From Leucobacter salsicius M1-8 (GTDB lineage Bacteria > Actinomycetota > Actinomycetes > Actinomycetales > Microbacteriaceae): a stretch of DNA of 64,000 nt. The notes under the pieces were generated by a model, which worked only from the letters and a program-made list of their open reading frames with translations, made no database searches and was not told the origin of the DNA. Both the position numbers and the translations under genes were made by a program. The stretch spans positions 186,001 through 250,000 of the forward strand of contig NZ_AOCN01000019.1 in the NCBI RefSeq assembly GCF_000350525.1, read 5' to 3'. Shown here piece by piece: positions 22,624-25,057 of the stretch (positions are counted from its first letter, which is position 1; each line of letters starts with the position of its first letter).

Positions 22624-22636
22624 CGCTGGCCTCAAG

Positions 22637-22681
22637 GCGCGTGGGCGTTCGCACTTCGGTGCGGGCGCCCACGCGCTTTTT
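22637..22681 (+). terminator. Intrinsic terminator of rpoBC
   Basis: An 11-base stem GCGCGTGGGCG (22637-22647) pairs with CGCCCACGCGC (22666-22676), with an inner GCAC-TTCG-GTGC hairpin, and is followed by TTTTT (22677-22681). Confidence 0.9.
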
Positions 22682-22792: not shown

Positions 22793-23827
22793 ATGAGCGA
22801 AGAACGCGAGACCCCTGCGTCGAGAGCCGCGGAAGCCCCAGAGGCCCCGGCAAATCTCGGCGCACCCGTCGAAGAAACCGAAGTGAGCGAAACCGAGGTC
22901 CTCGAGGCGGTTGAGCGCGCCACGAGCCCGTCGGCTGAGCCCGCGGGCCCGAACGGAGAGCCCACGACTCTGGCTGACGAGGCTACTCCCGCGGCAATCG
23001 CGGAGCCCGGCGAGGAAGTGACTGGCGAAGCCGCGAGTGCCCGATCCGGTACAAGCACCGAAGGCAGCGTGGATCTCGGTGTCGCCCCCACGCCCGAGGT
23101 TGCAGAACAGGCGCGCCGCCAAGCCATCTCCGAGGTGGACACCCAGCTCAACATCGACATGGGTGCGGGTATCGCGGACCCCACGCTCGGCCTCGATGAC
23201 CTTCCGAGCGCGACCGAGGAGCCAGCGCGCGACGGCGAGATTCGCATTGCGGCTGACCACCCGATGGCGGCGCTGTACATGCAGTCGCCGATGCCCCCCG
23301 AGATTCGCGGTAACCGCGGAGCGGGCGTGCTCATTGCGCTGCTCGGCACGGTTGGTTTCGCGCTCGTGTGCGCGGGTGTCGTGGCGCTGTGGCTCGCGCC
23401 CACGCTCGCACCGTCACAATTCGTCGCCGGGCTCACGGAAAGCTTGCTCGCGTGGAGTTTCATTGCCGCGACGATCGCGTTCTTCGTCGGGCTTGCCGTG
23501 CTCGTGCTGATCGTCGGTCGTGCTGGCTGGTGGGCCTATGTGCTGGGCGGCTTTTTCGTGGGCGTCTTCGTCTGGGCAGCTGCCACCGCGGGGCTCGTCG
23601 TCGAGGCGCTTGGCTGGCGGGCACTCATTGATCTGGCTCCCGCCGCGCTCATTGAAAAGTTTGGTGTCTCGGTTCCCGCGATCGCGGCCGGTGTGATCGC
23701 CCGCGAAGCCACCGTATGGTTCGGTGCGTGGATCGGTTCGCGCGGTAGGCGCATGAAGCAGCGCAATGCGGAAGAACTCGCAGCGTACGAATCGGCCCTG
23801 GCAGAGGTGCAGGCGAAGTCGATATGA
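22793..23827 (+). CDS. Membrane protein of unknown function with acidic disordered N-terminus
   Basis: 344 residues; not recognised. The first ~165 residues are rich in Glu, Ala, Pro and Thr, lack obvious fold and would be cytoplasmic. A segment AADHPMAALYMQSPMPPEIRGNRGAG leads into about four hydrophobic helices (for example VLIALLGTVGFALVCAGVV and AVLVLIVGRAGWW), and a basic tail RGRRMKQRN follows. ATG 22793 is chosen because GAGGTGAGG precedes it. It is the first of three genes with 4-base overlaps sitting between rpoC and rpsL. A role in envelope or transport regulation would be speculation. Confidence 0.78.
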   Translation: MSEERETPASRAAEAPEAPANLGAPVEETEVSETEVLEAVERATSPSAEPAGPNGEPTTLADEATPAAIAEPGEEVTGEAASARSGTSTEGSVDLGVAPTPEVAEQARRQAISEVDTQLNIDMGAGIADPTLGLDDLPSATEEPARDGEIRIAADHPMAALYMQSPMPPEIRGNRGAGVLIALLGTVGFALVCAGVVALWLAPTLAPSQFVAGLTESLLAWSFIAATIAFFVGLAVLVLIVGRAGWWAYVLGGFFVGVFVWAAATAGLVVEALGWRALIDLAPAALIEKFGVSVPAIAAGVIAREATVWFGAWIGSRGRRMKQRNAEELAAYESALAEVQAKSI

Positions 23828-24312
23828 GCGCGGCGGGCCGGCGGGGCGTAACGCGCGGTTATGTGGTGGCGTTGATCGCCGCAACGTGCATCGTTGCAGT
23901 CGCCCTGCTGGTCCCTTCCTGGGGTGCGATCGCGCTCGCAACCGGCACCGAACCGGTGATGACCGACTCTGTGTCGCCCTCGGCCGGCCCACTCACGGTG
24001 GTCGTCGCGCTCGCCTTGCTCGCCGCTTCGCTGTGGCGACAGGCGATCACGCTGCTACGTGGACAGCGCAGCCCCGCCTGGGGGCAGATCATCATCGCGG
24101 CCGTCGGCGGCTACCTCGTCTGGTGCCTCGGCGGCATGCTCGCCGGGATGGACCTGCGCGCCACCTGGCTGAGCCCCTACGCGGTCGCGCTCGGCGTCTC
24201 CTGGGCGCTCGCAACCCTCGCCTTCTGGGCGGTTCTCGCCCGGCGCGTGTACACCGACCGGCCGCCTCCGCGGTGGCCGTGGGAGCGGGCTGAGGAGAGC
24301 GACGGCTCGTGA
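23824..24312 (+). CDS. Small four-helix membrane protein, unknown function
   Basis: 162 residues; not recognised. Four hydrophobic helices are predicted by eye: YVVALIAATCIVAVALLVP, TVVVALALLAASLW, IIIAAVGGYLVWCLGGMLA and WALATLAFWAVLARRVY. A Pro/Trp-rich acidic tail follows. The ATG overlaps the end of the previous gene (ATGA), and its TGA overlaps the GTG of the next gene, so the three proteins are likely produced together and the two membrane proteins may associate. No catalytic motif is visible. Confidence 0.76.
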   Translation: MSAAGRRGVTRGYVVALIAATCIVAVALLVPSWGAIALATGTEPVMTDSVSPSAGPLTVVVALALLAASLWRQAITLLRGQRSPAWGQIIIAAVGGYLVWCLGGMLAGMDLRATWLSPYAVALGVSWALATLAFWAVLARRVYTDRPPPRWPWERAEESDGS

Positions 24313-24941
24313 CGGTCGTCGAGGATCGGGTCTCCGTCGCTGTCGACGCTTGGCTGCGATGGCTGCCATCGTGGCGCCCCGGGAGCCACCGCGGTCGCAC
24401 GCGGGTGTGCCGGCGCTGCACCGGATCTCCGGTGGTGATGGCCGCCGCGATCGGCCACGACGTGCCGCATCAGGTGACGCACGCACTCACGAGCCGAATG
24501 CAGCGCATCATCGACCGCGGGGTCGACGAGTACACGGAGCGAGAGTTGCCGCTGCTGCACGCAGAACTCACGGGGGAGGAGCTGTGGAGCTCGGGCGGCT
24601 ACGATCCGGCCGCCGGGCTTGAGCCTGAATTCGAGGGGATTGATCCGGATCCCGAGCCCGCAGAGGGCTCGCAGCCGTACCTCTTCACACTCGCGGGCCT
24701 CGCGGAGGAGGTGCGCCCCGAGGCGCCGCTCCCGCGGCCGCCCTTGACTGCGCAGGAACGGGAAGTGCTTGCTGCCGAGATTGCCCGCGCGGACGACTGT
24801 GCCGAGGAGATTGGGCGCGAACTGTGCCTCGCGCTTGTGACCCACAGGGCCCGGATCGCCGCCGCGATCGAGCGCTTCGTTGAGCCCCAGGTGCAGGCCA
24901 TGCTCGACGAGCTCAGCCGCCATCTGGAGCCGCCGCGGTAG
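24309..24941 (+). CDS. Soluble protein of unknown function with N-terminal CxxC
   Basis: 210 residues; not recognised. There is no membrane segment. An N-terminal basic stretch contains a VCRRCTG knuckle, a single CxxC that might bind metal only as a dimer. The middle is acidic (EFEGIDPDPEPAEGSQ), and the C-terminal ~65 residues are helical and charged (AQEREVLAAEIARADDCAEEIGREL), suggesting a coiled coil. The GTG start overlaps the upstream stop by four bases. No family motif allows a functional call. Confidence 0.72.
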   Translation: MTVVEDRVSVAVDAWLRWLPSWRPGSHRGRTRVCRRCTGSPVVMAAAIGHDVPHQVTHALTSRMQRIIDRGVDEYTERELPLLHAELTGEELWSSGGYDPAAGLEPEFEGIDPDPEPAEGSQPYLFTLAGLAEEVRPEAPLPRPPLTAQEREVLAAEIARADDCAEEIGRELCLALVTHRARIAAAIERFVEPQVQAMLDELSRHLEPPR

Positions 24942-25010: not shown

Positions 25011-25035
25011 AGCTAACTGGTGTGCACCCGTTTGC

Positions 25036-25057
25036 GCTGCCCTCGCGGCGGCTTTTT
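25036..25057 (+). promoter_or_regulatory. Terminator-like hairpin in the str operon leader
   Basis: GCTGCC (25036-25041) pairs with GGCGGC (25047-25052, one G-U) around a 5-base loop, followed directly by TTTTT (25053-25057). It lies ~20 bases after the predicted start site and upstream of the first gene, so it could act as an attenuator. Confidence 0.45.

Follow-up and report, generated by a model that had tools for sequence, protein, structure and literature searches.

Membrane-protein genes A and B and a gene for a putative zinc-motif protein between rpoC and rpsL in Leucobacter, with relatives in other Microbacteriaceae

We analysed a three-gene set (genes A, B and C) that sits between rpoC and rpsL in the window, the whole 64-kb stretch of Leucobacter salsicius DNA under study. 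Judged by sequence comparison, A and B are a conserved pair of membrane-protein genes, and their products likely form a complex. B is a divergent relative of the DUF6121 proteins. C encodes a soluble protein with a probable zinc site, and it is plausibly an accessory of A-B. On present evidence the trio amounts to an A-DUF6121 locus in a variant form, with a zinc-motif protein added, and not to a new class of system. As far as searched, A and C appear to be families confined to Microbacteriaceae. They set one bacterial family apart in the genomes searched, and no name, domain or structure was found for either. The family genomes counted below belong to the window's own family (Microbacteriaceae) as grouped by the genome search; 199 were sampled.

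Gene order and transcription signals

The interval contains the following features.
22635..22681, plus strand: intrinsic terminator 3' of rpoC (fold, T-run)
22793..23827, plus strand: gene A, ATG 22793 to TGA 23827, 344 aa, acidic tail and four-segment membrane domain
23824..24312, plus strand: gene B, ATG 23824 to TGA 24312, 162 aa, four-segment membrane protein
24309..24941, plus strand: gene C, GTG 24309 to TAG 24941, 210 aa, soluble
25032..25057, plus strand: weak terminator-like hairpin between C and rpsL (terminator scan, fold)

Each junction in the set is a 4-base overlap (ATGA at A/B, GTGA at B/C). The first-pass annotation had described three coupled genes with such overlaps behind the rpoC terminator, and the coordinates and both junctions agree with it. 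The fold of the 67 nt 3' of rpoC has an energy of -47.3 kcal/mol (z -6.34), none of 200 shuffles does as well, and TTTTT follows the stem, which bears out the terminator. The consensus terminator scan gave a shorter stem there than the fold analysis. AGAGGTGAG lies immediately upstream of the A start ATG at 22793. The hairpin between C and rpsL has a fold z of only -1.04, and 29 of 200 shuffles equal it. The promoter scan of the interval gave 0 sites, a result that carries little weight in such a genome. No RNA element in the interval had an Rfam match reaching the gathering score.

The genes 3' of the trio are presumably rpsL, rpsG, fusA and tuf, judged by their sequences, and their order agrees with other genomes. 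The RpoC of the window shares 90% identity with its counterpart in Leucobacter chromiisoli (family Microbacteriaceae). A, B and C are judged to be real genes and not chance open reading frames because invariant columns persist when they are aligned with relatives at 24-78% identity. Hydropathy gives four membrane segments in A, four in B and none in C, in line with the earlier description of two membrane proteins and one soluble protein.

Gene A

The protein opens with an acidic low-complexity tail (residues 1-158; 35 D/E versus 8 K/R). It continues with four membrane segments, whose hydropathy peaks, after overlapping windows were merged, are at 179-197, 223-241, 255-273 and 284-302. An acidic, disordered cytoplasmic domain had been claimed at first pass. 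Its acidity stands by these counts, its cytoplasmic side is suggested by the positive charges that flank the membrane segments, and its disorder would follow from composition. The model of residues 151-344 (AlphaFold2, 38 rows) has a mean pLDDT of 92.7 and a pTM of 0.84. The last helix of the model spans 50 residues and must therefore extend outside the membrane. The membrane part contains 10 columns that are invariant in the 38-sequence alignment, E305 among them. R304 is kept in at least 90% of the 38 rows, and the two residues lie near the middle of the predicted membrane helix.
23702..23707, plus strand: R304-E305 of A, placed by position within the last membrane segment (38-row alignment)

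Window A has no convincing domain in Pfam and matches nothing in NCBIfam or PADLOC at E up to 1. Its relatives gave stray Pfam-type matches to ABC2_membrane_3 (2e-4, 2/32), CitMHS (8e-4, 1/32) and AmaP (3e-4, 2/38), with others weaker. Profile searches for solved relatives gave none for A and none for B at E up to 0.1. Foldseek retrieved nothing for the A model with E at or below 0.001, and its best match (E 0.64) was a TolQ chain. The best Z in a structure search was 6.8, to unrelated chains; such a Z is ordinary for helical models. The weak structure matches include TolQ and the membrane parts of efflux pumps. Like the TolQ/ExbB/MotA-type motor subunits, A has several membrane helices, one of them long and extending beyond the membrane in the model. 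It differs from those systems in that the trio has no visible TolR/ExbD/MotB-like partner and in that the Foldseek E is 0.64 at best.

Gene B

B has hydropathy peaks at 12-30, 53-71, 89-107 and 120-138 and a C-terminal P-x-W-x-W-E motif. Among its aligned relatives, 13/25 match DUF6121 (PF19616), a Pfam family of unknown function, with a best E of 2.9e-13. The alignment links window B to these members, and B is accordingly placed, on alignment grounds, as a divergent relative of the DUF6121 proteins. B is similar to them in size and has the same place adjoining A, but its identity to the remoter members of the alignment is 24-34%. Window B itself does not reach the Pfam profile (0 families at E up to 0.1), and the wider Pfam search gave only MTABC_N at E 0.2, below that family's cut-off. 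NCBIfam likewise gave nothing for window B at E up to 1. Stray matches of B relatives include DUF4199 (4e-4, 1/25), with others weaker. The earlier statement that none of the three contains a recognised domain thus holds for the window proteins, none of which has a convincing domain match, but not for the relatives of B. A literature search of a limited collection retrieved nothing on DUF6121, alone or alongside DUF3097/DUF3054.

The A-B pair

Relatives of A were found in 152/199 family genomes by a single-sequence search, which makes this count a lower bound. B was found in 121/199 by a profile search. Positions of A were listed for 149 of the 152 genomes, and 104 of these also contain B. In 85 of these 104, B follows A on the same strand at a distance of no more than 300 bp. 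Of the 30 best-scoring A loci, 28 have a frame of the B family adjoining A. The 4-base A-B overlap recurs in five loci (L002, L003, L004, L009 and L013) and the B-C overlap in two of them (L009, L013), depending on the starts chosen.

In Homoserinibacter gongjuensis (Microbacteriaceae), A and B lie in a single 441-codon frame without a stop (locus L095, the same as L253).
L095:12439-13437, plus strand: A and B in one frame, Homoserinibacter gongjuensis (frame reading)
This is the sole case among the 115 A-holding frames examined, many of them mutually redundant. It comes from one genome and could instead reflect the loss of a stop or a sequencing error.

A and B are thus a conserved pair as far as gene order can tell. 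The pairing, the one-frame case and the overlap make a complex of their products likely. The first-pass annotation had proposed a small membrane complex of all three; A and B do look like partners, but the trio is not a fixed unit.

Gene C and its candidate metal site

C contains no membrane segment by hydropathy. Its model (AlphaFold2, 35 rows) has a mean pLDDT of 85.2 and a pTM of 0.76 and is all-helical, with no strands. The alignment of 35 C proteins has 22 invariant columns. They include the four residues of the motif C34-x2-C37-x16-H54-x3-H58 and, likewise, W15, W18 and W22.
24408..24419, plus strand: C34-x2-C37, first half of the putative metal site (alignments)
24468..24482, plus strand: H54-x3-H58, second half of the putative metal site (alignments, model)
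24600..24704, plus strand: residues 98-132, conserved low-confidence segment (alignment; pLDDT blocks 58-72; absent in the paralogues described below)

In the model the CxxC lies in a loop, a short helix follows at 41-46, and the HxxxH opens the helix 54-79. We call zinc probable at this putative site because the four residues are invariant in C (35/35 rows) and in an alignment that includes the paralogues (12/12 rows, 6 of them paralogues) and because the model places the CxxC in a loop and the HxxxH at a helix start. The four residues offer one clean test of a possible new metal-binding module.

C2H2-type zinc modules have a C-x2-C then H-x3-H pattern and a beta-beta-alpha fold. C resembles them in this conserved order and in the His pair at a helix start. 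It differs in its spacer of 16 (13 in the paralogue), in the lack of a match to such a module in Pfam and in its predicted model, which is strandless and so does not have the beta-beta-alpha fold. Zinc-binding anti-sigma factors have the order H-x3-C-x2-C. C was rejected as one of these, since its conserved order is C-x2-C then H-x3-H.

Window C has no convincing domain in Pfam and matches nothing in NCBIfam or PADLOC at E up to 1; NCBIfam gave nothing for the 35 C members. Stray matches of C relatives include DUF7685 (0.003, 2/35), with others weaker. Profile searches found no credible solved relative, the best being apolipoprotein E at E 0.12. Fold searches with the C model retrieved long-helix proteins (BAR domains; Mcl-1, best Z 5.1). 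We take these as a common shape that rules out no fold. PHROGs gave matches to window A, B and C only at E 0.16 to 0.72. A known anti-phage defence system was rejected, as A, B and C match 0 PADLOC families at E up to 1.

The C paralogue

A shorter relative of C is clear in 6 genomes of two genera, at these loci.
L190:5535-6101, minus strand: C paralogue
L211:6592-6996: C paralogue
L212:4583-5152: C paralogue
L213:5703-6107: C paralogue
L214:6078-6482: C paralogue
L215:6250-6819, minus strand: C paralogue

It is 21-30% identical to window C, does not contain the 98-132 segment and keeps all four Cys/His residues in 6/6. By hhalign the paralogue profile is homologous to that of C (probability 98.7). 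The paralogue profile matches 68/199 genomes, which are 62 with full-length C, 4 with the paralogue only and 2 weak (G080, G130). At three of the loci (L190, L212, L215) the paralogue is followed by a type II/IV secretion ATPase gene (Pfam T2SSE match in L190), which we take to be pilB-like.

Distribution of A and C

A sample of 248 genomes from the order gave 17 full matches to A and 18 matches to C, all in Microbacteriaceae. The only match of A outside the family was a weak one of 39 residues (E 3.5e-4). Among ten named-locus genomes, A is present in 7 (Leucobacter chromiisoli, Gryllotalpicola, Clavibacter, Agromyces, Homoserinibacter, a Microcella MAG and Microbacterium ulmi) and C in 3 (Leucobacter, Agromyces and Microbacterium). 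Both are absent from the other three, a Microbacteriaceae MAG, Cellulosimicrobium and Kocuria. Profile and single-sequence searches agree in placing C in 66/199 family genomes. Four of these (G016, G068, G097, G159) contain only the shorter paralogue and were left out, which leaves 62 with full-length C.

Linkage of C to A-B

The first-pass annotation had assigned the three products a fixed stoichiometry, which is no observation and finds no support here. C lies directly 3' of A-B in 20/62 genomes with full-length C. Full-length C is absent from 98/149 genomes with a placed A, and C is thus unnecessary for A or B. A three-protein complex of fixed make-up was rejected on this count and because C often lies elsewhere. 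Conservation as a unit, on which that annotation had staked its proposal, is therefore split: A-B adjacency is kept (85/104), and C is absent or distant in many genomes. A is placed in 51/62 C genomes and not placed in 11/62. Of the 51, 23 have A and C no more than 1 kb apart, 2 have them 1-5 kb apart, 16 have them 5-50 kb apart and 4 more than 50 kb apart; in the other 6, C lies on another contig. Three of the 23 closest cases are not A-B-C on one strand.

B is followed directly by C in 33 of the 58 genomes with both, and 13 of these have no A before B, so the B-C linkage is able to outlast the A-C linkage. B is present in 58/62 C genomes versus 63/137 without full-length C; this comparison ignores kinship, and the B profile draws mainly on genomes that contain C as well. 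An accessory role of C is plausible because C is linked more firmly to B than to A and because the genes are coupled in the window.

Three layouts illustrate the range. L. chromiisoli keeps A-B-C intact beside rpsL, and the set is absent from the first 8 kb behind its rpoC. In genome G120 a stretch of 29 kb separates A-B, which lie 2.5 kb 3' of rpoC, from C, which lies 2 kb short of rpsL. In genome G079 the separation is 21 kb, with A 0.8 kb 3' of rpoC and B-C immediately upstream of rpsL. The last two indicate that the rpoC-rpsL gap can open on either side of B. Duplication of B is an alternative, since in genome G002 a weak second B-like frame follows A (E 3e-6) and another B precedes C.

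The other neighbourhoods of C bring a second reading close in weight to the accessory role, although we hold it to be somewhat unlikely. A-B and C would have separate jobs, the gap would be a place where genes gather, and C, as a free zinc-motif protein, would act on some target in the cytosol, perhaps one linked to RNA polymerase or the ribosome. The 20/62 count fits this reading, as do the many other genes, up to about 30 kb of them, in the gap of relatives. The paralogue lies 0.3 to about 8 kb 3' of rpoC in 6/6 loci, and no A or B frame was found in these loci. C also occurs in the order DUF3097-C-DUF3054 (L172, L173, L188; Pfam names checked on the L172 proteins), which argues that C works apart from A-B there. 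In L174 the same order has DUF3054 reversed, and in L175 C adjoins DUF3054 with the DUF3097 match 6 kb off. The B-C adjacency, including the 13 pairs without a preceding A, and the presence of B in nearly every C genome tell against separate jobs. The DUF3097-C-DUF3054 order forms a second recurring C neighbourhood, in genomes where C is not near rpsL.

Proposed mechanism and further alternatives

Our leading reading, offered tentatively, is an inner-membrane A-B complex on which C acts in some genera as a zinc-stabilised cytosolic accessory. A and B would assemble as a small inner-membrane complex of Microbacteriaceae, with direct A-B contact. A would contribute a flexible acidic tail on the cytoplasmic side and a core of four helices, with the conserved R-E pair inside the last membrane helix, and B would pack alongside. 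C, helical and cytosolic, would have its N-terminal module stabilised by a metal, probably zinc, bound at C34, C37, H54 and H58. It would dock on A-B, most likely through the conserved 98-132 segment. In the genera that have it, C may couple A-B to a cytosolic partner. The division into an A-B core and a C accessory tells which deletions and pull-downs to choose.

A bolder extension is that A-B-C is a membrane device, so far only in Microbacteriaceae, in which the zinc-motif protein ties transcription or translation to the condition of the inner membrane. C-type proteins do lie near RNA polymerase or ribosome genes in two separate paralogue lines, but we consider this a long shot.

Also improbable, if a little less so, is a transport role: A-B would form a small transporter or ion pathway whose working site is the R-E pair of A, and C would be the cytosolic regulator that senses metal for it. 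The invariant E305 and nearly invariant R304, about mid-helix, would suit such a site, and the weak matches to TolQ and efflux-pump membrane parts point the same way. However, those matches stay outside the Foldseek threshold and at an ordinary Z, a buried R-E pair may merely hold helices together, and the window trio has no ATPase.

We think it quite unlikely that A, B and C take part in envelope assembly together with neighbours that they have in some genera, namely a MoxR-type ATPase and DUF58, transglutaminase and FHA proteins. In favour of this, locus L179 has AAA_3 (which we take to be MoxR), DUF58, transglutaminase, FHA, B and C packed in that order on one strand, and at least 15 genomes of at least 6 genera have a DUF58 gene no more than 5 kb from A, B or C. 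Against it, DUF58 is matched in 173/199 genomes altogether, and none of the four proteins is matched in the 64-kb window, with the DUF58 match of the window genome lying elsewhere.

The rpoC-rpsL gap in relatives

A literature search of a limited collection retrieved nothing on Microbacteriaceae signature proteins or on the rpoC-rpsL region, Clavibacter included. Among the Tn-seq matches listed, none was by title a Microbacteriaceae screen. A further protein family of about 350-490 aa, membrane-anchored by eye, lies between B or C and rpsL in seven loci (L186:2726-4183, minus strand; L178, L179, L180, L184, L219 and L224). Its L186 member has no Pfam match, and the family has no match in the window. 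The gap in relatives (L171-L190, L211-L225) is up to about 30 kb and contains many other genes. It looks like an insertion hotspot in Microbacteriaceae. Its contents in some genomes include genes for MoxR-type, DUF58, transglutaminase, FHA and secretion ATPase proteins.
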